From positions 8,063,157 through 8,127,156 of the forward strand of contig JAINUG010000014.1 in NCBI GenBank assembly GCA_029706075.1: a stretch of 64,000 nt of DNA, written 5' to 3'. The notes below the pieces were generated by a model, which searched no databases, had not been told where the DNA came from, and saw nothing but the letters and a program-made list of their open reading frames with translations. The position numbers were made by a program, and so were the translations under genes. The DNA comes from Aldrovandia affinis (taxonomy: Eukaryota > Chordata > Actinopteri > Notacanthiformes > Halosauridae). Within the stretch, counting starts at the first letter, position 1, and the number at the start of each line of letters is the position of its first letter. This document shows positions 25,901-61,900 of this stretch, piece by piece.

Positions 25901-28900
25901 AAGGTGTCTGAGAAAGAATTTCACATTCTCGTGCAAAAAAGGCAGACTAAGTGGGGCCATCATTGGCGGGTTTACTGCTCTGTGAGTGAAGCCAGGGCAC
26001 TTGGGGTATGTAGCTGTGGTGAGCCGGTGCCACACCCCACAACTTCAGGGGTCTACCTATGAGCTGGAAATTATGGATCATGGAGAAAATAATTATGGCC
26101 CGCCAGATTAAAGTGGGGTCAACCACGCCCACTTGGAAGATCTGGTTCCAGCTCATACCTCGGCTGCGTGTATCATTTGCATATTTGGAGAGAGACTAGC
26201 TTAGTTTGGTATCATTTTCTAACATTTCATTTCTTTGTTCTCTTTGATTGTTACATGTCAATTTTATGTCTAGGATTTTGTATTTGTTAAAGTAGCTGAA
26301 ACTACGTCTGTAGATTGGACTGAATGTTGAATATTTTGTCGAACTGTTGTAACTGAATAAACCAGCTGTTCATTTTAATTGCTATCAATTAATTTGTTAT
26401 TTAATTGATAATTAGTATCCTGTGTAGTAATGACTATATTAAATCAAATATTTATTTATTTATTTATCAATTTTTCAGATTTTACCCCGTTTTTCTCCCA
26501 AATTGGTAGCCAATTACTCCCGCTGTGCTTAATTCAATCTCCTCCCTCGTAGTTCGCTACCGTAGCCCTGTGACCGGCAGTGACAAGTGCCCCCTCCGAG
26601 ACAGCACTTTCTTACTTACTGTCGACTGTAATTCCGGCACCCCAGAACCACTCCTGTGTGCAACGAACTGTGTTGGCCTCCCTTCCCCCTCCCTGGGGCG
26701 GACAGCCAATTGCCGCCCCGGGGGCACTCCCGGCCAGAGCCGCCTCTAGCGCGACGGGGAATCGAACCCCGGTCGCCGTGGCCAGCATCAGACGTTGAAA
26801 CCACTAGACCATGCGGGAGGCATCTAAATCAAATATATTTTACATGTCGGATAAGTGAGGGGTTTTAACACGTAATACCACTTGTGTTCAGTATTCAGAG
26901 TGCTGAACTTTAAACAAGGGCATTTGACTGTTAAGGCTACTGGATTCAGGGAATAGACCATTTTTATTCTAACTTCACTGTTCCGACAATATTTAACAAC
27001 TAATTTAACACAAATGTTCACAAAACATTTTAAAAGAGTTGTGATGCTTGAAAACAAGGAGGTTCAGACGCCCTCAGATCCACCCCATTCATTTAGTATC
27101 ACTCACATTTACAACAGTACATTAAATTACGCATGAATGCTGCCCATTGTGACCAGGGTTCGATTCCACCGGTTGCGCCGGCTCAGCTCTGGCCGGGAGT
27201 GCCACTAGGGGGTGGCAATTGGTTGTCCGCCCCAGGGAGGGGGAGGGAAGCCGATATGAGCTCGCTGCATACAAGAGTGGCACTGTGTACCGGAGTTACA
27301 TTACATTACAGGCATTTGGCAGACGCTCTTATCCAGAGCGAAGTACAACAAAGTGTTACAGTTGACGGCTTGGTGAGTTCCTGCTCGGAGGAGGTGGTAC
27401 ATCGCCTTTGTCACTGCTGGTCTCAGGACTACGCCAGCGAGCTCTCAATACAAGGGCGATAGTTCACATGAAAAGAGGATATAACTGGCTACAAAAATGA
27501 AGGGAAATCTAAAACGAAAACTTAAAAAACAAAAACAATAATAAACTAAGAGAGGTCACTGAAATCATGGAAATTCTAAACCCAAGCATAAAAATGGGGA
27601 AAAGCAGACTTGTGTCCACTGCAGGTCCACACAGCAGGGGCCAAGCTCACCTGTCACTGCACGGCGGGGGCGGAAGGGGAAGGCCTTTCTCAGCCTCCTG
27701 CACACAGAATGCACCTCCGCTTGACCTGTGAGGAAAACTAAAATACCGCCTAAAAGACAGACAAACACAAACGCTCATTCAACAGGAAGAAAGGAAACAA
27801 TAAAAATACAGGGCATAATACAAATGAGATTACATGCAAATGAATACATTATCTTACATTACAGCAGACACCTTTATCTAGAGTGACTTACAGTTTATAT
27901 TCTTTTACATACAATCCATTTATATAGCTGGATATTTTACTGAAGCAGTTCAGGTTGAGCACCTTTGCTCAAGGGTACAACGGCAGTGCCCCACCTGGGA
28001 ATCGAACCTGCAACCTTTAGCATTACAAGTCCAGCTCCCTAACCATTGTACTACACTGCCGAATCTTCTGCACAGAATGGATATGCAGAGTTATGGAAGT
28101 GTGTGCTGTGTAGCAGCCTACCCACCAGGGGGCAGCATGCGGTGGATCTTGCAGATCTTGTGGAAGGCCTCCCCAGTGTAGTCCTCCATGGGGGTGCGCT
28201 TGTTAAAGTGGACGGTGACAGGGAACTGCCGGGCTTCAACCTGCAGGATGGTACACACGAACACTATCAGCAATGGCTTCCCAGAACACAACATATAACA
28301 TAATGTGCATTTAGCAGACGCTTTTATTCAAAGCGACTTACAATAATGAATGCATGTTTCAGTATACGTGGTCCCAATGAGAATCGAACCCACAACTTAA
28401 GAACTGACAGCACCGTGCTCTACCTACTGAGCCACACAGAACCACGCTCTACCTACTTAGCCACACAGAACCATGCTCTACCTACTGAGCCACACAGAAC
28501 CATGCTCTACCTACTGAGCCACACAGAACCATGCTCTACCTACTGAGCCACACAGAACCATGCAGAACCACTGCAAAAGAGAGATCAGCCAGATGACCTG
28601 GGAATGAACCCTGGTCCCCGCTGGAGGGGGGGGGAGGGGTGCCTTTATATCCGTCCCCTAGCAAGAGCCTGTTCCTGCCTGCACATGCTGGGTGTTGTCT
28701 TAACCCTTTCAGGAGCGGGTCTCATGAGAGATCTACAGTTCTCTGAGGATGCCATTGGCTGCCCTTCATCAATTAAAATCAACTAGAATGTTGTAACATG
28801 TTCGAGAACACACATCACACTGTGACACTAGGCACACAGACAGTCCTTCCCAGCTGGGGTCATAAAGTCACAGTGGTTTACATAGTGACCCGATCCCCCT

Positions 28901-31900: not shown

Positions 31901-34900
31901 GTGTACCCTAGGCAGTCAACACTGGAGGAAAGGGCAACTCCCAACGGGGAGGAAGATTCTGACGAGCATTCTAGGACAGGCAGACATTTCAGAAAGGACA
32001 TCCTTATTTGAGTAAATAAATAACTGCAAAAAAAGAAACAAAGACCATGACTACACTGTGAACAACACCTCTGGTCCGGTCACAATTCTCCTCTTGTAAC
32101 GTTGCACAAAGCAACAAACCCATTTGGGTGATTCTCTTCAGTAATGACTGACTAATTGACAGTGCTGAAATGAGCTGAAAGGGTTTAATGGCATGTTTAG
32201 CAACTCCCCTGAGCCAGACCGCACACGATGGGGTAGGCCAGAGTTGCTCAAATCACAGTCCTCGTGGGCTGAGTACTGCTGTTTTTCCACACTCCCTTTA
32301 CCTGGGAGTCAGGTGTGAAGACACCCTGGCCAATCTGTTGCATTAAATTGTTCAATTACCTCTCTGAGAGAAAAGAAAACCAGAACTTAAGCTTGATTCG
32401 TGGGCCAGATTTGAGTAACCCTGGGGTATTCTCAAGACCAGGGCGATTCAGTTCCAGGCCTCGAGGGCCACAGTGTATTTGCTCCAACCACGCACAACAC
32501 CACTTGATTTAATTAATGAGCTCACCTCCTGGACCAAGAAGGTAAACTAGTAAGTGAAATCAGGTGGTGTTGTGTGTGGTTGGAGCAATTACCTGCAGAC
32601 ACTGCGGCCCTCGAGGTCTGGAACTGAATCGCCCTGGTCTTGAGAATACCACTGGGTGACAATTCCGGCACTCACCTGGCTCTGGGGCACTCACCTGGAT
32701 CTCAGGCCGCCTCCCCACAGGTATGAAGATTGCAGGCTCTGATGGCTCCTTTTTCAAGGCCTGAGGTGGAGAGGCCTTCTTTGTGGTCGCCTGCTCCTTG
32801 ATTGGCACAGCCACATTCTCCACGGAGGGTCCAGCCGGCTCCTCTGGCGGAGGGGCTTCCGTGCCTTCCATCTCTCCGCCCTCCTGTTCCTCTTCATCCG
32901 AGGAGGAATCGAGGACGTCGCTCTCCTCGGGGGCCTTCTCCTCCTCCTCTTCCTCCTCTTTCCACCTCTTCCTCTTGCGGTTGGCCCCGCTCAGACTGCT
33001 GATCTTCCCAGGGCCGGACGCCCCTTCCTCCATCTCATCCAAGTTCCTAAAGACAAAGAGAGCCGTGTTTGACACAACTGAACTCTTAATACTGTATCAC
33101 TTTTTATCTTTTTTTTTCTGGTCATGCTTTTATTCCCAATTTTCTCCATATTTTTAGTTGCCAATTATACCCATGCTCGTATGAGAGGTCGCTGCTGTAG
33201 TCCTGAGAATGGTAGTGAGTGCTGCACCGCCTCCTCTGAGCCCGCACCAGCCACGGTCACCGTAACACACAGGACCACTCATATACGCAGCTAGCTCATA
33301 TCGGCTTCCCTCCCCCCTCCCTGGGGTGGACAGCCAATGTCTGCCCCCTAGTGGAACTTCTGACCAGAGCCAAACTGGTGCGACCCTGGTACATCACTTT
33401 TGACAAATGGCAGATACGTGCAATGGCAGTGCTGTTTGTTTCTGAGTTACTTTCCATCACAAATAGAAACATCTGCTCTCCTGATTTTGTTTGTCCATTT
33501 TAGCTATTATGGATACTCCCCTTCTTGACAGAAGGCCAAGCTCTAAAGAGATCAACAAAACAAAACCGGCCCTCAGAAGCAAAGATTAAGGGCCACTGCC
33601 ACACTGTGTAATGTTCAAATTGGAAGTTCTTAGTGTGCATTACTAAAGATGCAGGTGTCACTGAAGATAACCATGGCCAATGCATTAACAGGGATTTGTT
33701 GAGCAGATGGTATTGTTTTTTTAAATGCATTAGATTTTTTCCAATTTTTCTCACAATTTAGTGCCCATTATACCCTCTATTTATTTCGATTTACCCTGCC
33801 CACACAAGTTCGCCGCTTCTCTCCACGAGGCAAGCTAATTCTCTGAGGGCAGTGAATTCCGCTTCCATCGAGACGGAATTCACCCACCCACTCTCTGGAG
33901 CCACCCTTACGTGGTTCTCAACAAGTTCATCCCAGCTCACCCTCCACCTGGGGCGGACAGCCAAACACTACGGCTGGTCTGGTACAGTCAGGTTTCGAAC
34001 CACGACCGTGATAGGCAGCTCACACTCTTAAAGGACCAGCCAATCCGGTGTGCGTTAGACCGCTACGCTATCGGAGGCCCCCTGAGCAGATGGTATTTGA
34101 GAGCTTTAGGGAAGAAGCCATACTTTTTGCTCTGGTAGAGTTTGTCCCCGGTGCCCAGTTTAGAGGTGGTGTAGAGCAACTTCATCTCAGAGTCGGGCAG
34201 CTGCACCTCTGCCAGCCTGCTCAGAATGTCTGCTCGCTACGGAGACAAGAGGACAGAGACGGTGACCAGGCATGCTCGAAATTCAACAGTAAGACAAGCA
34301 GAGGCATTTCAGAAAAGGAGTCAGAACACATTGCCAGTGTACAAACATTCTGCCCAAATAAACAAAAAATTCTGTAAAACAACCAATTCAAACAAGGAAA
34401 ACGTACAATCTAAGACCTCTGGATGTGTCCGTGAGCTCGTCCATATGATTGGTGGACAGTTTGGGTGTGATGAAGTGTGTTTTTACCTGGGCTTTCTTCT
34501 CCTTCTGCTCCAGAACGTTCTGTAGGTGCTTCTTCTGTTTCTTGGTCAGGGGCGGCTTCTTTGGCACACGTTTCTCGATGCCTTTCTTCTTCTTTGTTTT
34601 CGTGGCTGGGAGCACCAGCGCGTTGCTCTCATCCACCCCCTTCAAAGTGTCGCCATCTAAGTGTCAAAGTGAAAGGGGAAAAAATATATATAATGTATGC
34701 CATTTAGCAGATGCTTTTATCCAAAGCAACTTACGGTAGTGAATGCATACATTTTTCAGTATATATGTGGTCCCAATGGGAATTGAACCCACAACCTAAG
34801 TGTTATTAACGCCATGCTCTACCTACTGAGCCACACAGAACCACAAAAAAACTATGCTGACTGCACTCTTATATCCCACTATTAACTGGAATGTACAAGA

Positions 34901-39361: not shown

Positions 39362-39687
39362 GGGCGGTCCTGTTTAAAAAAAAAAGAAAAGGAAAGTGCC
39401 GGCTTGGACACAGGGGGGAGGGCTGAGAAGCTTGTGACCAGTGTTACACAATTTTAGGGGTTAAGAAAGACCAAAGCTGAAGCATATGCACGTTTGGCAT
39501 AATATTTTATTCCAGTTGCAGAAAACAATTCAGACCGCACGGGTCCGTAAAGTGGGCTACCGATACAAATTAAATGCAATGAATTGCTACATGGTTTTAA
39601 TTAATTAAACGGGTCTGCGGATACATGCAACCTGCTTGGCGGTCAGAAGTATCAAAAAACGAATAAACCCGCCGTGGAAATAACAAG

Positions 39688-40414
39688 ATGCAGGCAACTG
39701 AAACGGAGCGTTCCACCGACGGGATACCCAGAACTTTCTTGAATAGCCTGCGGACCCTCTTCGACATTCTGGACGACGGGAAGAAGGGCTATGTGCATAT
39801 TTTGGAAATCGAGAGCCGATGGCGTGGCGCGGACACCCGGGATTTGCCGGGCGGTGTCCTTCAGTGCCTGCGGCGGGTTGCCCCATCTCACGGCCGCCTG
39901 ACCTTCGACCGCTTCGTATCGGGGCTCCGGCACTCAATGCTCAATCCGGATAACGGCCACGTCAATATTCAGTGCGGGTCTCGACGGCAACACAGACTCT
40001 ACCATGCTTCCAGACAGAAGCAGGGTCAGCTGCCGCCACAGAGACCGCACGGTGCAGTCTTTGACTGCGCAGTTTCTTCCCCGGTGGTTGGGAACAAAGT
40101 GCGTCCACTGGCACCCAGTAACGGATCAAACGCGCACCACAACAGGACCCTAGCTACCGGGTATCCCGCTTCCAGAAAACTCAGAGAATCCTCGCCGTTT
40201 AGCATCTCAACCAACGCTGTTGCAGCTTGTCCCTTGCGCTACAATAACGGAGGACGTGAACGGACTGGCCGGAGTTTGGATCGTATTTCCACTGTGCCAG
40301 AAAGCGGTCCACATGGAGCAGATTCGGTTAGAACTGGGAAATGTCGTCAGCAGAGGACCCGGGGCAGATCCGCGGAGTCCCATAGGCGTGTGTCACCACA
40401 GCTCCAAAAAACAA
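39688..40414 (+). CDS. sapcd2: sapcd2 exon 1 (start, SAPC/EF-hand-like domain)
   Basis: The ATG at 39688 is followed by a 242-codon open frame. [20 protein letters not shown] and [20 protein letters not shown] match the SAPCD2 N-terminal domain. The remainder, rich in Arg, Ser and His, is low-conservation linker. The donor is ACAA|GTGAGT, phase 1. A type B SINE begins about 30 bp beyond the donor. Confidence 0.95.
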
Positions 40415-40961
40415 GTGAGTTGTTTTATGTCATCGAGCAGCAGTGTAGTGTAAATGTTAAGGAACTGGGCATCTAACTCAGAGGTTGCAGGTTCAATTCC
40501 CAGGTAGGGTACTGCTGTTGTACCCCTGAGCAAGGTAGGCTACCTTCAGGAAAATATCCAGCTCTTCTAATGGATTGTATTTAAGAAACGTGAACGGTGT
40601 AAATCGCTCTGGATAAGCATAGTCTGCTAAATGCCTAACATGTAGTAACTGGTCGGCCGCCAACAACCTATGGGGAATACATGATTTGAAGTGAGATACT
40701 TGTAGTGACGTCACACACGAGTCCGTTTTATATTATGTAATAATGGGTTGGGTATCCTATATCAGGATACGAATACTTTAGTCGTAATTTAGGGTGTTCA
40801 TATGTGAGCTAACGTTATGGAGCTTGCCTTCTATACTATAGCTGTTATTGTCCTCACTTCCACACAATTATATAAAAATACGGGCGTCCAAAGTGATGCA
40901 CCCGTTAACAATTGAATCTTAGCTGATAGTTGCAGACTATTCCAATGTTTGTTACAGCTGT

Positions 40962-41049
<88 letters not shown>

Positions 41050-44000
41050 CATATGTACGCGTCTATCTAGCTAACCAGATTTATCTTTAACGTGATTATC
41101 CATCACTTCTAAAAGCGGACTGATCGTGTGTATGCAGTGATTGAGTTTTCTCCAAAACGTTGTCACGTTGACAGTTTCTCTCCTAGCGGTCAGGTTAGCG
41201 CCCGACTGTTCAACTGTGCTGGCCGACTCCTCATTGTCACTGTCCGGATGTCGCGATGCGTTTGGCGGACCGTTTTTATGGTGACGGAAATAACAATCCG
41301 TAGTAAGAGGATTGAGTAGGTTATTAATGGAGTCTTCTGATTGACTGTAGTCTGCGGTCAGGTCCTAGCCCGATGACCCTAGGAGACGTCTGTGTCTTCA
41401 GCCCTGCAAACACAGCGCTGCTATTCCCAACTCAGCAGTTCGTAACACCTGAATGCTATTTCTGTGTGTGCCATCTCAGAAATCTCTAGAGATTTTTCTG
41501 GCGTTGTGTTGCTCCACTGCGTTTTCATCCCACCTTGAACTGGTGAATTAACTTTAAGGTTGTTTTTTTGTGGGGTTTTTACATTTTCTGTTATGCAATC
41601 GGCTGATTTTATTATCTAAGTGACTCAATTAAGTTTCTAAATTGTTCGCGTCACCATATCGATTAAGACAGGCTGGCCTTTTAGACATGTTTTTCTGAAC
41701 TGTCTGTCAAAAAATGGGATTTCAATCATGAGAAATCCTGATAAGGTAGAGTATTATAAGTTTCCCTTCATAACGACAAACATAATAACTACAGTCATAA
41801 TAGTATGGTATGGTATTTTGTAACATAATACAAATGTGTAGGTCAAGGTACAGTGTGTCTCAAAAGTAGCCCCGGCAGGCACAAAATGGTGAAAAATACC
41901 GTATTCAACTGAAACGTACTTAGAAGTACGAGATCGTACAGCAAAAGTTCCGTTGACACATGTCAATTTCCTGTGTTGTGAAACGAACATTTGTCAAACT
42001 TGTGCTTTCATTTCTAAACCATGAGAATCCACTAATCCACTAATATTCAAACATCCTGACCAAATTATCTATTCATGAGCAGTTCTGAATAAAGCCGTGT
42101 TTACACTATGAACCAATCCGTTGTGGAATCTACATTTAGGCGAAAGGCACATTCCTGAAAATATTTTTCTGCAGTCTGTAGAAAAACAGCTCTCTCTCAA
42201 ATGCGCATTTGCCTCCAGATTCCCAGGCAGCACTTGGAGGTAGCGCACGAGACGAGAGAGATCAAGTGCTGTTGCAATAAAACATTTATTATGATATTTA
42301 CTTCACAGGTGTGTTTATAACAGTACTTGCAGTGACAACATTCTACATTTTGAAACGAATTTACATTTTGCAGAATTGCTCTCGTGCTTTCTGATGTGGC
42401 TCAGTAAGTAGGTAGAGCATGGCACTGGCAACGCTTAGGTTCTGTGTTCGATTCCCATTGGCACCACATATACTGAAAAATGTATGCATTCATTTCTGTA
42501 AGTTGCTTTGGAGAAAAGTGTCTGCTAAATGGCATATATATATATATGGTCATGCTATAGGGGCTGAAATGACGACAGTATAAATACTGACTTGTTTGGG
42601 GTGGGGGAGCGGGCTATTATAGCGATCAATCCCTTTAAATTCACCACATGGCCTGTTATATATGCAGAAGCATCTGTTCTTGGTGAAATGACATTTTGCA
42701 ATACCTCGGACCACCAACTACATAAGAACAACACATGATTCTTATTTTTTGGGGGGATGAGTTACATTTTGCTGCTTACCAGTCACGCAACTCCAACTCT
42801 TTAGCCCATTGACACCAACATAATTTTGAATGGGAAAATGTATTTGTTTCTGGGAAACATTATAAACATTGTCTTTTCCAGGAGGACCGCAAGTTTTAAA
42901 AGTTGCACACTTTTCTGAGATTTTCATGGATTTGGGAATATGTAATGCACACATCATCCTTGTAAAATCTAGCAAATGTACAAACATTGATTCACCCCTC
43001 TTAAAAAGAAACTCTCTCCCTCTCTCGCTGGTGATTGAGCCATTCCAAGATTTTATCCAGACAGTTGCACAGAATCTCTCTCTAGAAAGTTGCCACTGCC
43101 ATAACTTTCTGTTGATGGGAACAGACTCATCTCCACCACCAGTGAGTGTGTCCCCTCCTCCTGATTTAGGAGTGAGGTCATTCTCACAGATCCAGCCGAG
43201 CGTAACGCAGTATCCCCCAACCACAGTGGTGTACATGATGGATCCACTCTGTGTGTCTGATCACATGGGCAGTGTAAGGCACGGGCGATCAGAGAGGCAG
43301 TGTGGGAGACCGTCTGAGATCAGAGAGACAGTGTGGGAGACCGTCTGAGATCAGAGAGACAGTGTGGGAGACCGTCTGAGATCAGAGAGGCAGTGTGGGA
43401 GACCGATCTGAGATCAGAGAGACAGTGTGGGAGACCGTCTGAGATCAGAGAGAGACAGTGTGGGAGACCGTCTGAGATCAGAGAGACAGTGTGGGAGACT
43501 GCCTGGCCTGAGATCAGAGAGATCAGTGAGACAGTGTGGGAGACCGCCTGAGATCAGAGAGACAGTGTGGGAGACCGTCTGAGATCAGAGAGACAGTGTG
43601 AGAGACCGTCTGAGATCAGAGAGACAGTGTGGGAGACTGCCTGAGATCAGAGAGGCAGTGTGGGAGACCGCCTGAGATCAGAGAGACAGTGTGGGAGACC
43701 GCCTGAGATCAGAGAGACAGTGTGAGAGACTGGAGATCAGAGAGACAGTGTGGGAGACTGCCTGAGATCAGGAGAGACCTGAGTCTGAGATGAGAGATCA
43801 GAGAGACAGTGTGGGAGACCGTCTGAGATCAGAGAGACAGTGTGAGAGAGACCGTCTGAGATCAGAGAGACAGTGAGAGTGAGATCAGAGAGACAGTGTG
43901 GAGACTGCCTGAGATCAGAGAGGCAGTGTGTGGGAGACCGCCTGAGAGTGGGAGACCGCCTGAGATCAGAGAGACAGTGTGAGATCAGAGAGAGTGTGAG

Positions 44001-47000
44001 AGACTGTCTGAGATCTGAGATCAGGCTTTCCAGTGGCTGAAAAAGCACACCATCGCACATATAAGGAATGGCCAATGGCATGCTCTGCTCTGTGTGGTAT
44101 GCTCTTCTGGCCTTCTTTAGTCTCTCTCAAGAATGTCCCATAGCTCCACCCCCCCACAAATGTGTGGCCACACCCTCTTAATCACACCTCTCCTTCTCAC
44201 ATCTCCCTGCTGAGTTCTCTCTCTCCCTCTCTCCCTCAGTCTCCCACATTCTCTCTGGTCCATAACACACATAGTCTCTCCTTTCAGGTGCGTTTTATCT
44301 GTGAGGTAAAACTTTGGCGAGAGTATTGGTAAACTTTGACTTCTCATTGGTATGGTTTTTAATAATCACAGTATTTGGTAGAATTGTAAATATTGGATAT
44401 TTGACATAATAATGCATAATATATAATATACACATTTAACATTCATTTTTATAATGGAACCTTTCTGGCAAAGGCCATTTTAATTTTCCTCCAGCAGATT
44501 GAGATAAAACAGTTTTATTGATTTAAAAAATATATTTCCATTCAACAAACAGAGAAAAGTACACAACGCCTGAAGAAGTGGGAGAGTATATATAAATATA
44601 ATTAAAAACACTAAAAAAATCAAGCTTTTCCAGTATAGTGTTAAATAAGAGTATGTTGACATTTGAGCAGGCCTGGACAAAACTGTTGAATGTTTAGGTA
44701 CTCCCTAAATTTCCAACAGTCAGGAGCATTAACAAGTGACTGCAGTCTTCTCAGTGTCCAATGGGAAAAACTAATACACTCTCTATACACTCTAAATCTA
44801 TAAAACACAATTCCTTACTAAATTATTGATATCAAAATGGTGCTACAACTGAACTTTCACCAATATATTTCACAAAAAACGAATGTCCAATCCTGTATGC
44901 TTTTACTTTTGCTTTGCTGTCTTGTGTTACCTTGGCTGACAACAGATCTTGAAAAACACAATGAAAGAAACACTGGATTTCAGGTGAATATTCTGCTTGA
45001 CTCCCTCATGTGGCCAAAACGGGTAATGCAGGCTTCCCTGCATAGCTTAACCAACAACTTATAGTTAGTGCTGGCTATGAAATACAATATCCAATTGGAA
45101 AGTATAGAGGAGGACAATGATAAATCACTGTAATGACATTCCCAGGCAAAGGGCACATAAGAACATAAGAATACATCGTGTTGAGAACAGGCTGTTCGGC
45201 CAATCTAGGCTTGTCATTTCATAGCCTAGAGAATATCCAGTACTGCGTCAAGCCTGGGCTTGAATAACCCAAGTGTTTCTGCCTGTACTACCCAACCTGG
45301 GAAGCTGTTCCAGGCATTGACAACTCTGTATAAAAAAAATACTTCCTGATACCTTCAAATTTATGACGTCATCAATCAATCAATCCCCCCCAAAAAAGGT
45401 TCATCGGATTAAAAATTGTTTTTATTGAATGAACATTCGTAATTTTCGTCAACATAAGTAGGCCTACATAAACGTAGGCTAATCCAGTAAGGGCTTAAAT
45501 AATCATGCAATTAAAAATCAGGCCCTTAAACTATAGCAAGCAACATTATGCTATGAATATGATAACAATTACATGTACAGTGTTCACTGGTCTCATATCC
45601 ATCGCAATAAAAGCCCATCAGTTATATCCCTTTTCCTTTTTTCAGACAAAGGGGGTTTCACCATCTGATCCAGGCTTCTTTGTCTTTGCGTTGTTGCCGC
45701 CGCCGGTACAGATTGCATGGGATGCATCTAAATGTTCCGTATAGATACACACAAATATTAATCAAGTCAAGTCAAGTAGTTTTATTATCAAATCACAGAT
45801 TAACAGGTATAACGCGGCTATAAGTATTGCACACGCAAAAGTCAATTGTTATGTAGAATATTATATTTCGCTATCATACTACTATTTTCCCCAAAATGTT
45901 GACTTCATGACTTATTTAGGCATAGACCTGTAGGTTATAGCCTATGCAGTACTCATATAGACCTAGCCCTTCTTAATTTAGCTAGATAGCCTACTTATGC
46001 CTATGCTAAGGCCTCAGGCTAATGTTAGACAAGCAGAGAAAATTCGGAGAATTTACACTTTTCAAATGATTTGCCAAATTCGTAGTAGAATGATGGTATG
46101 CAAGTTTAACTTGACATATCTGGCACTGCACTTTTTTAGGACTGTCCTCAGTAATCTTAAAATGTTTCCAAACTGGCGATTTCTTCATGGACATCTTTCT
46201 ATAGTCTTCTGTTGTTGGTGGTCGTGACTCGTGACTGTTGTCATAGGCGCTGAGCGGAGACAACCTCCATCCATCCATCCATTGTCTAAGCCGCTTATTC
46301 CTGGTCAGGGTCGGGGGGGTGCTGGAGCCTATCCCAGCATGCGTTCGGGCGAGAGGCAGGAATACACCCTGGACAGGTCGCCAATCCATCACAGGGCACA
46401 CACACCATTCACTCACACTCATACCTACGGGCAATTTAGACTCTCCAATTAGCCTAACGTGCATGTCTTTGGACTGTGGGAGGAAACCGGAGTACCCGGA
46501 GGAAACCCACGCGGACACGGGAGAACATGCAAACTCCGCACAGAAAGGCCCCGGCCTGGTCCGAACCCGAGACCTTCTTGCTGTGAGGCGACAGTGCTAT
46601 CCACTGCACCACCGTGCCGCCCGGAGACAACCTATATATAATAATTAATTTTGTTCTTTTTTGTAACTGTTTATTAACTACAATAGTAGTATAATACTAT
46701 AATATTAATTAAATAGCCCATTGGTTTAAACCGAATTGCAATGGACATGCAAAAAAACAAAACGCAAAGTAGGCCTAATCGAATGTGAAGAAGCATCGAA
46801 GCTTCGAAGCATTCGGTACAGCCCTACTGATATCAGTGCGGAATTTGCCTTTAACTAATTTCCACCTGTGCCCTCTTGTTCTGCTAACTGAAAAAATCTG
46901 TGGTAGTTCACTTTGTTAATCTCCTTTTATGAATTAAAAAACCTCAATCAAATCCCTGCTTAGTCTCTGTTTGCTGAGCTTAAATAAATAAAGAGTCTTA

Positions 47001-50000
47001 GGTCTTTCCCCGAGATCAGAGAGACAGTGTGGGAGACCGTCTGAGATCAGAGAGACAGTGTGGGAGACCGTCTGAGATCAGAGAGGCAGTGTGGGAGACC
47101 ATCTGAGATCAGAGAGACAGTGTGGGAGACCGTCTGAGATCAGAGAGACAGTGTGGGAGACCGTCTGAGATCAGAGAGGCAGTGTGGGAGACTGCCTGAG
47201 ATCAGAGAGACAGTGTGGGAGACCGTCTGAGATCAGAGAGACAGTGTGAGAGACCGTCTGAGATCAGAGAGACAGTGTGGGAGACCGTCTGAGATCAGAG
47301 AGACAGTGTGGGAGACTGCCTGAGATCAGAGACAGTGTGGGAGACCGTCTGAGATCAGAGAGACAGTGTGAGAGACCGTCTGAGATCAGAGAGACAGTGT
47401 GGGAGACCGTCTGAGATCAGAGAGACAGTGTGGGAGACTGCCTGAGATCAGAGAGACAGTGGGAGACCGTCTGAGATCAGAGAGGCAGTGTGGGAGACCA
47501 TCTGAGATCAGAGAGGCAGTGTGGGAGACCGCCTGAGATCAGAGAGACAGTGTGGGAGACCATCTGAGATCAGAGAGACAGTGTGGGAGAGACCGTCTGA
47601 GATCAGAGAGACAGTGTGGGAGACCATCTGAGATCAGAGAGACAGTGTGGGAGACCGTCTGAGATCAGAGAGACAGTGTGGGAGACTGCCTGAGATCAGA
47701 GAGACAGTGTGGGAGACCGCCTGAGATCAGAGAGGCAGTGTGGGAGACCGTCTGAGATCAGAGAGACAGTGTGGGAGACTGCCTGAGATCAGAGAGACAG
47801 TGTGGGAGACCGCCTGAGATCAGAGAGACAGTGTGGGAGACCGTCTGAGATCAGAGAGACAGTGTGAGAGACCGTCTGAGATCAGAGAGACAGTGTGGGA
47901 GACTGCCTGAGATCAGAGAGGCAGTGTGGGAGACCGCCTGAGATCAGAGAGACAGTGTGGGAGACCGCCTGAGATCAGAGAGACAGTGTGGGAGACCGTC
48001 TGAGATGAGAGAGACAGTGTGGGAGACCGTCTGAGATCAGAGAGACAGTGTGAGAGACCGTCTGAGATCAGAGAGACAGTGTGAGAGACTGTCTGAGATC
48101 AGAGAGACAGTGTGGGAGACCGCCTGAGATCAGGCTTTCCAGTGGCTGAAAAAGCACACCATCGCACATATAAGGAATGGCCAATGGCATGCTCTGCTCT
48201 GTGTGGTATGCTCTTCTGGCCTTCTTTAGTCTCTCTCAAGAATGTCCCATAGCTCCACCCCCCCACAAATGTGTGGCCACACCCTCTTAATCACACCTCT
48301 CCTTCTCACATCTCCCTGCTGAGTTCTCTCTCTCCCTCTCTCCCTCAGTCTCCCACATTCTCTCTGGTCCATAACACACATAGTCTCTCCTTTCAGGTGC
48401 GTTTTATCTGTGAGGTAAAACTTTGGCGAGAGTATTGGTAAACTTTGACTTCTCATTGGTATGGTTTTTAATAATCACAGTATTTGGTAGAATTGTAAAT
48501 ATTGGATATTTGACATAATAATGCATAATATATAATATACACATTTAACATTCATTTTTATAATGGAACCTTTCTGGCAAAGGCCATTTTAATTTTCCTC
48601 CAGCAGATTGAGATAAAACAGTTTTATTGATTTAAAAAATATATTTCCATTCAACAAACAGAGAAAAGTACACAACGCCTGAAGAAGTGGGAGAGTATAT
48701 ATAAATATAATTAAAAACACTAAAAAATCAAGCTTTTTCCAGTATAGTGTTAAATAAGAGTATGTTGACATTTGAGCAGGCCTGGACAAAACTGTTGAAT
48801 GTTTAGGTACTCCCTAAATTTCCAACAGTCAGGAGCATTAACAAGTGACTGCAGTCTTCTCAGTGTCCAATGGGAAAAACTAATACACTCTCTATACACT
48901 CTCTAAATCTATAAAACACAATTCCTTACTAAATTATTGATATCAAAATGGTGCTACAACTGAACTTTCACCAATATATTTCACAAAAAACGAATGTCCA
49001 ATCCTGTATGCTTTTACTTTTGCTTTGCTGTCTTGTGTTACCTTGGCTGACAACAGATCTTGAAAAACACAATGAAAGAAACACTGGATTTCAGGTGAAT
49101 ATTCTGCTTGACTCCCTCATGTGGCCAAAACGGGTAATGCAGGCTTCCCTGCATAGCTTAACCAACAACTTATAGTTAGTGCTGGCTATGAAATACAATA
49201 TCCAATTGGAAAGTATAGAGGAGGACAATGATAAATCACTGTAATGACATTCCCAGGCAAAAGGGCACATAAGAACATAAGAATACATCGTGTTGAGAAC
49301 AGGCTGTTCGGCCAATCTAGGCTTGTCATTTCATAGCCTAGAGAATATCCAGTACTGCGTCAAGCCTGGGCTTGAATAACCCAAGTGTTTCTGCCTGTAC
49401 TACCCAACCTGGGAAGCTGTTCCAGGCATTGACAACTCTGTATAAAAAAAATACTTCCTGATACCTTCAAATTTATGACGTCATCAATCAATCAATCCCC
49501 CCCAAAAAAGGTTCATCGGATTAAAAATTGTTTTTATTGAATGAACATTCGTAATTTTCGTCAACATAAGTAGGCCTACATAAACGTAGGCTAATCCAGT
49601 AAGGGCTTAAATAATCATGCAATTAAAAATCAGGCCCTTAAACTATAGCAAGCAACATTATGCTATGAATATGATAACAATTACATGTACAGTGTTCACT
49701 GGTCTCATATCCATCGCAATAAAAGCCCATCAGTTATATCCCTTTTCCTTTTTTCAGACAAAGGGGGTTTCACCATCTGATCCAGGCTTCTTTGTCTTTG
49801 CGTTGTTGCCGCCGCCGGGTACAGATTGCATGGGATGCATCTAAATGTTCCGTATAGATACACACAAATATTAATCAAGTCAAGTCAAGTAGTTTTATTA
49901 TCAAATCACAGATTAACAGGTATAACGCGGCTATAAGTATTGCACACGCAAAGTCAATTGTTATGTAGAATATTATATTTCGCTATCATACTACTATTTT

Positions 50001-53000
50001 CCCCAAAATGTTGACTTCATGACTTATTTAGGCATAGACCTGTAGGTTATAGCCTATGCAGTACTCATATAGACCTAGCCCTTCTTAATTTAGCTAGATA
50101 GCCTACTTATGCCTATGCTAAGGCCTCAGGCTAATGTTAGACAACAAGCAGAAAATTCGGAGAATTTACACTTTTCAAATGATTTGCCAAATTCGTAGTA
50201 GAATGATGGTATGCAAGTTTAACTTGACATATCTGGCACTGCACTTTTTAGGACTGTCCTCAGTAATCTTAAAATGTTTCCAAACTGGCGATTTCTTCAT
50301 GGACATCTTTCTATAGTCTTCTGTTGTTGGTGGTCGTGACTCGTGACTGTTGTCATAGGCGCTGAGCGGAGACAACCTCCATCCATCCATCCATTGTCTA
50401 AGCCGCTTATTCCTGGTCAGGGTCGCGGGGGTGCTGGAGCCTATCCCAGCATGCGTTCGGGCGAGAGGCAGGAATACACCCTGGACAGGTCGCCAATCCA
50501 TCACAGGGCACACACACCATTCACTCACACACTCATACCTACGGGCAATTTAGACTCTCCAATTAGCCTAACGTGCATGTCTTTGGACTGTGGGAGGAAA
50601 CCGGAGTACCCGGAGAAACCCACGCGGACACGGGGAGAACATGCAAACTCCGCACAGAAAGGCCCCGGCCTGGATTCGAACCGAGACCTTCTTGCTGTGA
50701 GGCGACAGTGCTATCCACTGCACCACCGTGCCGCCCGGAGACAACCTATATATAATAATTAATTTTGTTCTTTTTTGTAACTGTTTATTAACTACAATAG
50801 TAGTATAATACTATAATATTAATTAAATAGCCCATTGGTTTAAACCGAATTGCAATGGACATGCAAAAAAACAAAACGCAAAGTAGGCCTAATCGAATGT
50901 GAAGAAGCATCGAAGCTTCGAAGCATTCGGTACAGCCCTACTGATATCAGTGCGGAATTTGCCTTTAACTAATTTCCACCTGTGCCCTCTTGTTCTGCTA
51001 ACTGAAAAAATCTGTGGTAGTTCACTTTGTTAATCTCCTTTTATGAATTAAAAACCTCAATCAAATCCCTGCTTAGTCTCTGTTTGCTGAGCTTAAATAA
51101 ATAAAGAGTCTTAGGTCTTTCCCCGAGATCAGAGAGACAGTGTGGGAGACCGTCTGAGATCAGAGAGACAGTGTGGGAGACCGTCTGAGATCAGAGAGGC
51201 AGTGTGGGAGACCATCTGAGATCAGAGAGACAGTGTGGGAGACCGTCTGAGATCAGAGAGACAGTGTGGGAGACCGTCTGAGATCAGAGAGGCAGTGTGG
51301 GAGACTGCCTGAGATCAGAGAGACAGTGTGGGAGACCGTCTGAGATCAGAGAGACAGTGTGAGAGACCGTCTGAGATCAGAGAGACAGTGTGGGAGACCG
51401 TCTGAGATCAGAGAGACAGTGTGGGAGACTGCCTGAGATCAGAGAGACAGTGTGGGAGACCGTCTGAGATCAGAGAGACAGTGTGAGAGACCGTCTGAGA
51501 TCAGAGAGACAGTGTGGGAGACCGTCTGAGATCAGAGAGACAGTGTGGGAGACTGCCTGAGATCAGAGAGACAGTGTGGGAGACCGTCTGAGATCAGAGA
51601 GGCAGTGTGGGAGACCATCTGAGATCAGAGAGGCAGTGTGGGAGACCGCCTGAGATCAGAGAGACAGTGTGGGAGACCATCTGAGATCAGAGAGACAGTG
51701 TGGGAGACCGTCTGAGATCAGAGAGACAGTGTGGGAGACCATCTGAGATCAGAGAGACAGTGTGGGAGACCGTCTGAGATCAGAGAGACAGTGTGGGAGA
51801 CTGCCTGAGATCAGAGAGACAGTGTGGGAGACCGCCTGAGATCAGAGAGGCAGTGTGGGAGACCGTCTGAGATCAGAGAGACAGTGTGGGAGACTGCCTG
51901 AGATCAGAGAGACAGTGTGGGAGACCGCCTGAGATCAGAGAGACAGTGTGGGAGACCGTCTGAGATCAGAGAGACAGTGTGAGAGACCGTCTGAGATCAG
52001 AGAGACAGTGTGGGAGACTGCCTGAGATCAGAGAGGCAGTGTGGGAGACCGCCTGAGATCAGAGAGACAGTGTGGGAGACCGCCTGAGATCAGAGAGACA
52101 GTGTGGGAGACCGTCTGAGAGAGAGAGACAGTGTGGGAGACCGTCTGAGATCAGAGAGACAGTGTGGGAGACCGTCTGAGATCAGAGAGACAGTGTGAGA
52201 GACTGTCTGAGATCAGAGAGACAGTGTGGGAGACCGCCTGAGATCAGGCTTTCCAGTGGCTGAAAAAGCACACCATCGCACATATAAGGAATGGCCAATG
52301 GCATGCTCTGCTCTGTGTGGTATGCTCTTCTGGCCTTCTTTAGTCTCTCTCAAGAATGTCCCATAGCTCCACCCCCCCACAAATGTGTGGCCACACCCTC
52401 TTAATCACACCTCTCCTTCTCACATCTCCCTGCTGAGTTCTCTCTCTCCCTCTCTCCCTCAGTCTCCCACATTCTCTCTGGTCCATAACACACATAGTCT
52501 CTCCTTTCAGGTGCGTTTTATCTGTGAGGTAAAACTTTGGCGAGAGTATTGGTAAACTTTGACTTCTCATTGGTATGGTTTTTAATAATCACAGTATTTG
52601 GTAGAATTGTAAATATTGGATATTTGACATAATAATGCATAATATATAATATACACATTTAACATTCATTTTTATAATGGAACCTTTCTGGCAAAGGCCA
52701 TTTTAATTTTCCTCCAGCAGATTGAGATAAAACAGTTTTATTGATTTAAAAAATATATTTCCATTCAACAAACAGAGAAAAGTACACAACGCCTGAAGAA
52801 GTGGGAGAGTATATATAAATATAATTAAAAACACTAAAAAAATCAAGCTTTTCCAGTATAGTGTTAAATAAGAGTATGTTGACATTTGAGCAGGCCTGGA
52901 CAAAACTGTTGAATGTTTAGGTACTCCTAAATTTCCAACAGTCAGGAGCATTAACAAGTGACTGCAGTCTTCTCAGTGTCCAATGGGAAAAACTAATACA

Positions 53001-55957
53001 CTCTCTATACACTCTCTAAATCTATAAAACACAATTCCTTACTAAATTATTGATATCAAAATGGTGCTACAACTGAACTTTCACCAATATATTTCACAAA
53101 AAACGAATGTCCAATCCTGTATGCTTTTACTTTTGCTTTGCTGTCTTGTGTTACCTTGGCTGACAACAGATCTTGAAAAACACAATGAAAGAAACACTGG
53201 ATTTCAGGTGAATATTCTGCTTGACTCCCTCATGTGGCCAAAACGGGTAATGCAGGCTTCCCTGCATAGCTTAACCAACAACTTATAGTTAGTGCTGGCT
53301 ATGAAATACAATATCCAATTGGAAAGTATAGAGGAGGACAATGATAAATCACTGTAATGACATTCCCAGGCAAAAGGGCACATAAGAACATAAGAATACA
53401 TCGTGTTGAGAACAGGCTGTTCGGCCAATCTAGGCTTGTCATTTCATAGCCTAGAGAATATCCAGTACTGCGTCAAGCCTGGGCTTGAATAACCCAAGTG
53501 TTTCTGCCTGTACTACCCAACCTGGGAAGCTGTTCCAGGCATTGACAACTCTGTATAAAAAAAATACTTCCTGATACCTTCAAATTTATGACGTCATCAA
53601 TCAATCAATCCCCCCCAAAAAAGGTTCATCGGATTAAAAATTGTTTTTATTGAATGAACATTCGTAATTTTCGTCAACATAAGTAGGCCTACATAAACGT
53701 AGGCTAATCCAGTAAGGGCTTAAATAATCATGCAATTAAAAATCAGGCCCTTAAACTATAGCAAGCAACATTATGCTATGAATATGATAACAATTACATG
53801 TACAGTGTTCACTGGTCTCATATCCATCGCAATAAAAGCCCATCAGTTATATCCCTTTTCCTTTTTTCAGACAAAGGGGGTTTCAACCATCTGATCCAGG
53901 CTTCTTTGTCTTTGCGTTGTTGCCGCCCGGTACAGATTGCATGGGATGCATCTAAATGTTCCGTATAGATACACACAAATATTAATCAAGTCAAGTCAAG
54001 TAGTTTTATTATCAAATCACAGATTAACAGGTATAACGCGGCTATAAGTATTGCACACGCAAAGTCAATTGTTATGTAGAATATTATATTTCGCTATCAT
54101 ACTACTATTTTCCCCAAAATGTTGACTTCATGACTTATTTAGGCATAGACCTGTAGGTTATAGCCTATGCAGTACTCATATAGACCTAGCCCTTCTTAAT
54201 TTAGCTAGATAGCCTACTTATGCCTATGCTAAGGCCTCAGGCTAATGTTAGACAAGCAGAGAAAATTCGGAGAATTTACACTTTTCAAATGATTTGCCAA
54301 ATTCGTAGTAGAATGATGGTATGCAAGTTTAACTTGACATATCTGGCACTGCACTTTTTTAGGACTGTCCTCAGTAATCTTAAAATGTTTCCAAACTGGC
54401 GATTTCTTCATGGACATCTTTCTATAGTCTTCTGTTGTTGGTGGTCGTGACTCGTGACTGTTGTCATAGAGCGCTGAGCGGAGACAACCTCCATCCATCC
54501 ATCCATTGTCTAAGCCGCTTATTCCTGGTCAGGGTCGCGGGGGGGGTGCTGGAGCCTATCCCAGCATGCGTTCCGGGCGAGAGGCAGGAATACACCCTGG
54601 ACAGGTCGCCAATCCATCACAGGGCACACACACCATTCACTCACACACTCATACCTACGGGCAATTTAGACTCTCCAATTAGCCTAACGTGCATGTCTTT
54701 GGACTGTGGGAGGAAACCGGAGTACCCGGAGGAAACCCACGCGGACACGGGGAGAACATGCAAACTCCGCACAGAAAGGCCCCCGGCCTGGATTCGAACC
54801 CGAGACCTTCTTGCTGTGAGGCGACAGTGCTATCCACTGCACCACCGTGCCGCCCCGGAGACAACCTATATATAATAATTAATTTTGTTCTTTTTTGTAA
54901 CTGTTTATTAACTACAATAGTAGTATAATACTATAATATTAATTAAATAGCCCATTGGTTTAAACCGAATTGCAATGGACATGCAAAAAAACAAAACGCA
55001 AAGTAGGCCTAATCGAATGTGAAGAAGCATCGAAGCTTCGAAGCATTCGGTACAGCCCTACTGATATCAGTGCGGAATTTGCCTTTAACTAATTTCCACC
55101 TGTGCCCTCTTGTTCTGCTAACTGAAAAAATCTGTGGTAGTTCACTTTGTTAATCTCCTTTTATGAATTAAAAAACCTCAATCAAATCCCTGCTTAGTCT
55201 CTGTTTGCTGAGCTTAAATAAATAAAGAGTCTTAGGTCTTTCCCCGTAACCTTTACCTTTTGCACGAGGTAAGCATCATTCAGGGACAACAATTCTCACA
55301 TTCTCAGGTATTTGTTTTCGAGCGTTTTTCTCACACTACGGTGCTAATTAGCTGAAATACTTCAGATATCCTAGTTGAAACCAGTGGCACGGGTCAATGC
55401 ATTAGGAAGAGAATAGGTAAAAGCAAACTAGTCTTGTTAACCGCACGATGGCAGACTCCGGGAGGGGGGTCATGAGGCATTTATCATCCAGTCGTGTCCT
55501 TTGTAGCGGAACAACAAATTGATCTCCCCCACAATGGCTTGCATTACACGCTAAGATCTCAGTCCCCACAACGCGGTTATTCTGCCAAGAGTGCAATGAG
55601 CAAAAACAACACAGTGAGGTAAATGGTGGGGGAGGGAGGGTAGTGGGGGCTTTGTCTCTGTATATTAATCAAATTCAATAAAGAGCTAACTTATTGTGTG
55701 TCTCTCTGTTCATCACTGGTGAGGTTAAAGTTGGCTTGTTATCAATTTTTTTCTGGATCAGGGCACACATGCAACCTAAAGCCTAACCTTTTACCAGGAT
55801 GCAACAGGATCCTGTTAGTTGAACTTGTTCTGTGGCATTCCAGCACTGAATATCTGTCATATTGTAGAGATGTTTGGGACATTGTACAAGACAAACTAAC
55901 ACTCAATTTTTAGCACCATTGTGCGTGCGTGTGTGTGTGTGTGTGTGTGTGTCTGTA

Positions 55958-56008
<51 letters not shown>

Positions 56009-56189
56009 GCGTGTGTCTGTAGGAGGATAGATCATTTGGGATGTAACTGTCAGAGGTTTTATCTGAAATAATCCTGGTCTTGGAAATATAGGCCAGGGCT
56101 GATCTCATTCCATTGGATCTCAGACAGACATTCCACAGAAGACAAACTAAGAGGCTGTGTGTGTGTGTGTATGTGTGAGTGAGTGATTG

Positions 56190-56225
<36 letters not shown>

Positions 56226-57334
56226 TGTTTGTGTTTGTGTGTTTGTGATATAACTGAATTGTGATATGACTGGTGTTTCTCTCTCTCTCTCTTTCTGTGT
56301 CACAGGCAGCGTTGACTACGGATGGTTGCCGAGGTCACAAAGTGAGACAAGCACAGGATTGGCCGGGGTGAGACACCAGGGGCGGGGCCGAGATGAGCGA
56401 AGGCGTAGCACTGTCACCAACGCAGTAGACTACGAGACGGTAAACGTGCCATTCAGTCAAATTCACATCCTTATTACCCCACTGTTCCCAGTGAATAGCT
56501 CACTCTATCTTATTCCCATTCGCAAAGAGAATCTCCCTGAAGCACTTACACACCCTAACATAAAGGACTAGATGCTTTTTGAACAGCTGATATTACTGTG
56601 TTTGGAAAAAAATTAATACATAAAAAAAAAAACTGACCGTGAATGGCAGACATGGATGAAGTAAATGTTAAAAGTGACATATTTAAGGGCATGGGAGATG
56701 TCAGGTGTACTTGGTTTGGAGTGGAGAGCTCTGTGTGTGTAGGGTTGTAATTGGGCCATTTAGTGAGGTGTAACTGCTGTTCTGTGGTGTTCAGACACAC
56801 TGCACACTCATCTCCCTCCCCACCCCTCAACACTGCCCGCCCCGTTACCCTCCCACAACTCTCTCTCTCTCTTCACCCTCCCCCTTTCTCTCTCTGCTCC
56901 ACCCTTTCTCACTCCACTGTCCCTGTGCATGTCCTCTCTCTCTCTCTCTCTCCCTCTGTGTTTCCCCTCTCTCTGTTTCTCAGAGCGGTCCTGCTTTCGT
57001 TCTGTCCGTCTTTATCCTCCCTGCGCTCTCTCTCTCTCTCTCTTCGCCATCTCTAAACCGCCCCCTCCTCCCCTCCCCTGCCTTGGCCACCCGTCCCCAT
57101 GGTAACAGGCCGGGTCGGGCCCAGGGGCCTAGAACCCGGGGACTTGCCGGACCGACCCGGACCGGCCTGGAGAGCGGTGTGGGCTGCCTACACCACCGTC
57201 TTCATCCCACTCAGCAGCAGCCTGCACAGCAGCAAGGCACTACACTTTTTCCTGTGGGTGAGTGAGTGAGAGAGAGAGGGAGAGAGAGATAGGGAGAGAG
57301 ATGAGAGAGAGAGAATGGGATAAGGAGAAAGGGG

Positions 57335-58988: not shown

Positions 58989-61900
58989 CTGGGGGGTTCC
59001 TGGAGTAAACCACATATGGGTGCCAGAAAAGGTTTGTGTTTCACCGGCTATGAAAATAATAATCCTCATATGGTTTGGCAGCCACTAATATCTGGATATC
59101 AATGTTGGCCTAAAATATGAATGAAGTAATATGCTGGGAAAACAGAAATATAAGTTATTTCCGAGACATCAGACTTTTTTGTTTGTTTGTTTTTTTCCAG
59201 TTTTTCTCCAAATTTAGTGGCCAATTATATCTTCTATTTATTTCTATATGCCCTTCCCACACAAACTCGCCACCCGTCTCTGAGAGACAAGCTAATTCTC
59301 AGAGGGCAGCGAATTCCGCCTCCTTCGAGATGGAATTTGCCTCGATCGGGGATCCCAACCAGGGGCGGTCTGGTACGGTTGGGTTTCGAAAGACTTATCA
59401 AACTTTGACTTTGATTTACCTGGGATGTGATGTGTTTCTATTTCAGTGGTTATTGGTCCTGGTGGTACAAATGCAATATTTAACTTTAATTGCACTATGA
59501 GCTATGTGTTTAAATGATTGCTGATTACAGCTATACTTTAAATTGGTTTTGAACAATGTATGCAAGATCGCATGGTATGTTTTGAAATTGTTTTACATTT
59601 ATTTATTTTACATTTTACGGTGACATGTGCCCACCCACTCCTGTAAAATGACACGTCCTTCTCTTGCAGCTTAACTCTTGCTTATTGTGTCTTTCTCTTA
59701 CATTTACATTTACATTTTAAGCATTTAGCAGACACTCTTATCCAGAGCGACTTACAAGATGTGCATTTATACATGGTAAGATCAATCATAGTTAGTGCAA
59801 GAAATCAGTGTAGTAACTCTGTAATATATATCATTGTTGGCAGCTGCACACCATACCTGTAACACAGGGAAGGAAAAGTTTGTTGATTTCTTAATTTCTT
59901 TGGGCAGTCTTCAACATAGATACATATTACAAAATGCAGTATTAAACATGCAAGCAGTGGTGATGACAATTAATTAAATGTACAGAATCAGTGGTAGTGG
60001 AGTCTGAAGAGGTGGGTTTTGAGTCTCTTGCGGAAAATGGCCAGTGATTCCGTGGTCCTGACCGAGAGTGCAGTCGTTCCACCACCGAGGGGTCAGGACA
60101 GAGAAGAGGCGAGACCGCGAGGAGCAGCTGCCAGGTGTCCAAAACGACAGGACAGTCAGTTTGCCAGAGGAGGCAGAGTGGAGAGGTCTGGCTGGGGTGT
60201 AGGGTGTGATGAGTGTCTGGAGGTAGGAGGGAGCGCTTCCTCTAGCAGCTTGATAAGCCAGCACCAGTGAACCGTTTGCAGCCGAACTCTTTGCTTAGCG
60301 TGTCCTTCTCTTGCAGCTGAAGCGGATGAAGGAGTTGGAGCAGGAGAAGGACACACTGCTGGCGGGACTGGAAGCAGTGGAGCGGGCCAGGGAGTGGTAC
60401 CAGAACCAGATCCAGTGTGTGACGGAGAGACAGAGGCACGTGGGTCGAAGCAACCACTGTATGGTGAGAGGCCGTAACACCAAGGGCTTGTTTTCACAGA
60501 GCCTTCTTTCACCTCAGGGCCTCCGAATGCTTTAAGGTGAGCGGTCTTCACCTGGGAGACCCACAGCAGTCTACTGGGACTGAAACAGATACTGCAAGTG
60601 TGTGGCAGCACATAAGTAAATTAGAGATGTCAGATTCGCTATCCACCTGGATACGGGTTGGAGGGACATATACCCCATACCTGTACAGCACAGAGAGTTC
60701 TTCTCAGGGTCTCCCACAGAAATAAATATGGCCACAGACTCTCAGTCCTTACAAACATTAACTTCTGTGCCCTCTGACCTCTGACCTCATGTGAATGCAC
60801 AAAATTGATAAATGACACTGGGAGGCTCACAGGGCATGTGCATTTGTCGCTAAAGTGGTCAGTTTCAAAGACGAGCTGGTAACCCTAATCCTTAACCATA
60901 ACCCTAAGTATAAGACAGCTGGAACGAGGGTTGGACTCTTTCCGTCGTCACTTTGGGGACTCAGTCAAACCTTGCGGGAGTTACTATCTAGCCATCACCA
61001 GCTCCCATGGTGCACACAGCTCCCATGGTGCACACAGACTCCCATGGCAGAATTGTTTTTTGCTTAAACAGTATGAAGGTTTACAAACACTCAATCCACG
61101 CACATGTTTGTGCTGTTCGGTATTGGTCTGAAATTTTAGTTGATCTGAACTTTATCAAACTTTATCAAAATGTGTCTCTCAGGATTTTCTCTCACAGCCC
61201 AGCCAGACTCGTCTGAACATCCTGATACCCAAATTAGAAGAGGTCAACCACTGCCTTAGTGACCTCCTGTCCTGCTCCGGCACAGTAAGTGACCTCCTGT
61301 TCTTTAAACAACGAACAGCCTCTTTGCAAAATAAAGCATGCTTGTTTTCTAACTGAAAATGTATTGTCTGGATAGAGATAGGCTTGCAATGTTGTACACA
61401 GAGCTTGTTATATAATATAGAACTACATTCCCATCTCTCATATGATAAACATATTTCTTACAAAATAATATATATATACAGCATATATATGCATTGTATA
61501 GAGTACATATTAACATAGATATGATAACAGTCATCTTCTCGCCGAGCAGCTTAACACAGTCAGTATTGTAATTGGTGTATAGGGCAGTAAAACACAGGTG
61601 TAATGTTTTTTAAAAACATTCTACATTCACCATTGATGAATAGCTCCGTACCCAATGAGAATAGAATGCATGGTTGTGAGCTGGCTAAGCTGTGCACAGT
61701 TTAAGTTGAAGTCTAAGGCCCGAGGGCCTAGGCACTCAACGCAGCTGAAAGTGGATTCAGTTTGTCTGTGATTCCCTCCACTGGCTGAACTGTGTTCTGC
61801 AGCAAAGTTCACTGTGCAGCTCTGTCAAAATGGGATTGATTTCAGTTTGCAGGCACATTTTATGTTCACATTTGAGGCATTTAGCAGGCGCTCTTATCCA

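Follow-up and report, generated by a model that had tools for sequence, protein, structure and literature searches.

A 4.1 kb unit repeated three times in the first intron of Aldrovandia affinis sapcd2, most likely a young tandem triplication of repeat debris

The window analyzed here, a stretch of 64,000 nucleotides from contig JAINUG010000014.1 of assembly GCA_029706075.1 of the deep-sea halosaur Aldrovandia affinis (Notacanthiformes), carries the gene sapcd2 on its plus strand. The exon 1 reading frame (39667-40476) matches the A. affinis protein P0001 at 99% and harbors, according to a Pfam domain search, an SAPC2_N domain (PF25825, E 9.6e-29). When P0001 was aligned to the window with tblastn, all of its residues were covered, in order and on the plus strand, from 39688 to 63680, and no frameshift was seen in the sapcd2 coding exons of the window; a candidate frameshift in exon 1 was dropped because the P0001 frame runs through the exon and matches Albula. 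The intron between exon 1, whose last base is 40414, and exon 2, which starts at 56306, is largely (75%) occupied by an array at 43287-55245, in which a 4.11 kb unit, composed of a 31-bp minisatellite and a 3 kb core, is present in three head-to-tail copies. The gene parts and the array are laid out as follows:

39688..40414, plus strand: coding part of sapcd2 exon 1 (SAPC2_N domain), directly followed by the splice donor GTGAGT
40415..56305, plus strand: sapcd2 intron 1, 15,891 bp, with ends set from P0001 and splice sites
43287..44023, plus strand: minisatellite 1, 737 bp, 24 pieces of the 31-bp unit (81% matches in TRF)
44024..47011, plus strand: core 1, 2988 bp
47012..48132, plus strand: minisatellite 2, 1121 bp, about 36 units, starting at the putatively novel junction of CCCC with GAGATCAG
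48133..51124, plus strand: core 2, 2992 bp
51125..52246, plus strand: minisatellite 3, 1122 bp, about 36 units, starting at a junction identical to that of minisatellite 2
52247..55245, plus strand: core 3, 2999 bp

A preliminary description of this DNA had placed three 4.1 kb copies at these coordinates, inside an intron of nearly 16 kb, and had the array end at 55245 with no minisatellite after the third copy. All of this is borne out, the intron by its measured length and the copies by the self-comparison of the window (a 7.9 kb match at 98%, plus the third copy, far above chance) and by the distances from core start to core start (4109 and 4114 bp). Two UnaL2 LINE 3' elements, on opposite strands, flank the array on either side (42485-42538 and 59715-59767), and a scaffold gap of exactly 100 N is found at 17974-18073 of the window.

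The core can be resolved into parts by comparison with the rest of the assembly (1.22 Gb, 2576 contigs). In core 3, three features were delineated, the left end of the first being transferred from core 1 and accurate within a few bases:

53579..55060, minus strand: hAT-like DNA transposon remnant with a BED zinc finger, with copies elsewhere in the genome
54479..54867, minus strand: SINE-like insert inside the hAT-like remnant, with 12-bp direct repeats CGGAGACAACCT on both sides
55062..55271, plus strand: right part of an outer interspersed repeat, crossing the right border of the array (55245/55246)

The zinc finger was detected, on the minus strand, in the corresponding ORF of copy 1 (zf-BED, PF02892, E 2.9e-11). 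The remnant has kept its right terminal repeat, TAGGGCTGTACC, but has lost the left one and about 180 bp of internal sequence relative to other copies; its flanks, CTGATACC and CTGATATC, are alike at 7 of 8 bases, and at least 22 further places in the genome match it at 82-93% (40 of 5696 candidates scored). The SINE-like insert, which we take to read on the minus strand and to contain a tRNA-like B box, has 15 genome places at 97-99% among the matches listed, over about 1267-1501 of the query. As for the outer interspersed repeat, its left part is present in every core ahead of the hAT-like remnant (in core 1, at about 45155-45353), and its left and right parts sit side by side, uninterrupted, in all seven genome copies that were fetched, which indicates that the hAT-like remnant inserted into this repeat at a later time. 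The left portion of the core is of another kind: its three full-length genome matches all fall inside the array, and within the first 1.1 kb or so of core 3 only about 100 bp (53003-53102; query 744-843) match elsewhere, among 40 of 400 candidates scored in each case. In the genome search for the unit that the preliminary description had suggested, the full unit was found only here among the candidates scored. We had also considered that the unit might be one mobile element, inserted in tandem in a Helitron-like manner; this was rejected, as the core consists of the debris of several repeats, and it is also contradicted by the left 1.1 kb of the core, most of which has no other place among the matches listed.

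The three minisatellites are not equally regular. Between minisatellites 2 and 3, 31 of 36 unit labels are identical and the remaining five differ by 1-2 bp, so that the unit-for-unit match first reported for these two blocks holds and, together with the head-to-tail cores, supports the idea that the entire 4.1 kb was duplicated as a block. The broader statement that the order of minisatellite variants agrees between the copies fails for copy 1: 13 of the 24 pieces of minisatellite 1 are of forms occurring only once (as against four labels in minisatellite 2 and one in minisatellite 3), and the longest run that it has in common with the others comprises five identical labels (A C B E D) preceded by a near-identical one. 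This irregularity may reflect either a decayed or contracted edge of the array or a poor consensus. It stands beside a clean core 1, and if all units are young, it calls for fast mutation or poor consensus, a point that counts against the explanation that we prefer below. A left-flank query carrying 44 minisatellite bases matched with that part only inside the array (15 candidates scored, in a type of search that skips simple repeats), and no further minisatellite of this type was found elsewhere in the 64-kb window.

The right border of the array is informative on the order of events. A genome search with the right part of the outer repeat listed 37 other places (40 of 2889 candidates scored), and each of these 37 runs beyond the position of the border (query end at 195-210, border at 185). 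In copies 1 and 2, the outer repeat stops at that very position, whereas in copy 3 it goes on to about 55271. Both internal junctions read identically, CTTTCCCC being directly followed by GAGATCAG, and one base (G) is common to both sides of this core-to-minisatellite junction. Because the outer repeat continues at the end of copy 3, whereas copies 1 and 2 both lose it from the same base onward, the ancestral right edge appears to be that of copy 3, and the two internal junctions would be a single novel junction that was copied. The array thus combines the same junction at its internal borders with an apparently ancestral outer edge, as a young tandem duplication should; and the earlier view that the third copy, having no minisatellite behind it, fixes one border is upheld for the right-hand border.

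On this basis, we consider it probable that the array arose by a recent tandem triplication of repeat debris within the intron, restricted to this locus, and that it most likely has no function of its own. The simplest account, for the one haplotype at hand, would be a single illegitimate duplication, with homologous unequal exchange as the next step. The ancestral order, as deduced from the junction, would have been left flank, 31-bp minisatellite, core, rest of the interspersed repeat, and right flank. A break or template switch inside the interspersed repeat, between CCCC and GTAAC, may then have been joined to a minisatellite unit through 1 bp of microhomology, thereby doubling minisatellite and core. 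In a second step, the two identical units would have undergone homologous unequal exchange, by which the inner unit was copied and their number brought to three; that both novel junctions are identical, and that minisatellites 2 and 3 are alike while minisatellite 1 deviates, would be explained by this copying of the inner unit. Finally, consensus errors beyond the reach of polishing in the repeat may have left a few small indels, a pattern that is observed and whose cause is presumed.

This last step concerns the differences between the cores, which had previously been taken as small indels that distinguish the copies. When gaps are scored cheaply, core pairs 1-2, 1-3, and 2-3 are separated by 1, 0, and 0 substitutions versus 17, 15, and 18 indels, each 1-3 bases long, over about 2.99 kb. 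The zero counts hinge on this cheap scoring: MAFFT, which prefers mismatches, some of them being shifted gaps, yields 10, 2, and 8 mismatches versus 12, 14, and 14 indels for the same pairs. Half of the pairwise core indels (25 of 50) lie in runs of at least three equal bases, and such runs make up 21% of the core bases. As a control, parts of the core were compared with 19 loci fetched from elsewhere in the genome, which gave 37 matches with 611 mismatches and 118 gap openings in total (leaving out loci L009-L011, of which L010 overlaps L004, and the array's own loci). Under this ratio, the cheap-gap counts have P <= 1e-12 and the MAFFT counts P 4e-5, 7e-10, and 7e-7. Among the control matches, a young one (the SINE-like part of L004, at 96%) shows 6 mismatches and 6 gaps; against a ratio of 1:1, the cheap-gap counts still have P 3e-5 to 7e-5. 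Since near-zero substitutions against 15-18 indels are the opposite of the divergence seen elsewhere in the genome, the indels between copies are, judging from the alignments, most likely residual long-read consensus errors, the true cores being near-identical, and they are better read in this way than as marks that tell the copies apart. That the sapcd2 frames are intact while the array carries indels lends weak support to errors specific to the repeat (P 0.024), weak because selection, too, preserves frames. In bacterial assemblies, short-read polishing leaves mainly homopolymer indels in repeats, according to the part of the source available to us (PMC8812927). With regard to the present assembly, a search of the open literature found neither its sequencing method nor a genome paper of its own. 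We presume that it stems from a teleost phylogeny project based on long reads.

A near-absence of substitutions between units is also what a young tandem duplication should display, and it sets a limit to the age of the array. Zero substitutions in 2985 bases put the 95% upper bound on core divergence at 0.1%; vertebrate mutation rates are near 1e-8 per base per generation, and the array would thus be some tens of thousands of generations old at most, unless its copies were homogenised.

Such similarity, however, may also be turned against the array. Copies separated by practically no substitutions could be a pure product of assembly, with a single unit in nature, but we hold this to be improbable, because a single unit offers no core-to-minisatellite junction, when the same junction is present twice here, and because the window contains no second minisatellite with which an assembler could have closed a false cycle. 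For these reasons, at least a duplication likely exists in the genome, and the number three is that of the assembly. In this respect, a real array whose copy number was assembled too low or too high, its identical 4.1 kb units having been collapsed or unrolled and minisatellite 1 being a poorly resolved edge, deserves serious attention, even if we would not bet on it; it overlaps with the tandem triplication proposed above and differs from it in copy number. Units practically identical over 4 kb are the hardest situation for assembling a copy number, the labels occurring once climb steadily from minisatellite 3 through minisatellite 2 to minisatellite 1, and the sequence, with its 100-base scaffold gap, is not gap-free. 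Against a wrong copy number, the flanks are assembled on both sides, the left and the right one each having one full-length place in the genome, and minisatellites 2 and 3 are clean. The left-flank search revealed no second contig for the locus among the 15 candidates scored.

The term macrosatellite, under which the array was first described, is right insofar as units of more than 1 kb (4109 and 4114 bp apart) follow each other head to tail, and overstated for three copies over 12 kb: macrosatellite arrays usually span hundreds of kilobases, according to the available part of PMC3599962. Like D4Z4 and DXZ4, the array consists of highly similar head-to-tail units above 1 kb, but it has three copies and 12 kb, and neither a promoter nor a CTCF site has been shown in it. 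A parallel may be drawn with the "SRS + unit + SRS" tandem duplications, which were reported, in the portion of PMC8831618 that we could consult, from 39 of 41 fishes examined, with units mostly below 5 kb that are arranged head to tail via short-repeat arrays and expanded by unequal exchange. The present array is similar to these (PMC8831618, same portion) in its units of less than 5 kb joined by short-repeat arrays and in the unequal exchange proposed; unlike them, it has a core rather than a short-repeat array at its right edge, and its junction point lies inside an interspersed repeat. It also resembles intronic minisatellites (VNTRs) by its 31-bp unit and by variant repeats in a fixed order, here in copies 2 and 3, except that the duplicated block extends beyond the minisatellite. 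The literature on the species, on its genome, and on sapcd2 with tandem repeats, including the accessible part of PMC11600626, yielded nothing on this array. Overall, the array is best taken as an ordinary young tandem triplication and not as a macrosatellite. Though of little importance in itself, it clearly illustrates two general points: the order in which a tandem array was built can be read from its internal junctions and from how far an interspersed repeat reaches, and, in a long-read assembly, a count of substitutions against indels can distinguish leftover sequencing errors from true divergence of repeat copies.

That a tandem unit of this size lies in a gene's first intron may nonetheless evoke a functional macrosatellite, for instance a DXZ4-like regulatory array with insulator sites in each unit. 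Given that there are only three copies and that none of the seven CTCF-like matches of the window (with at most one mismatch) falls inside the array, we regard this as the least credible of the readings, and an insulator array was set aside on the same absence of CTCF-like matches. An Rfam search of copy 3, up to E 1, gave no match, a tRNA gene search of the array found none, and the single-strand fold of five minisatellite units was unremarkable (z -0.58), leaving a structure-forming minisatellite unsupported. From these few sequence-based tests, the array gives no sign of any action beyond lengthening intron 1, and it would presumably be spliced out without consequence. It is also very doubtful that the array is actively unstable, with a copy number shifting fast within the species, a hypermutable minisatellite seeding unequal exchange, and an intron 1 length that tunes sapcd2 expression.

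Several other features of the window may be mentioned in their own right. On the minus strand, the reading frames at 32560-34663, which we assume to resemble the first exons of dhx37, had no family match in the Pfam domain search. A Tc1/mariner-like transposase remnant lies at 14885-15451, with DDE_3 and HTH_Tnp_Tc3_2 domains both below the curated cut-off. Tandem repeats of 29 bp that contain a tRNA-like motif (CTACCTACTGAGCCAC or the complementary sequence, in slightly varying forms) are found at 21718-21871, 28407-28563, and 63071-63136, and they are perhaps internally amplified SINE heads. Finally, the exact CTCF-like core CCACYAGGGGG occurs five times, at 27202, 28122, 29610, 33344, and 62075, when 0.08 occurrences are expected from shuffled sequence; as a guess, these five cores are perhaps carried by a SINE family.
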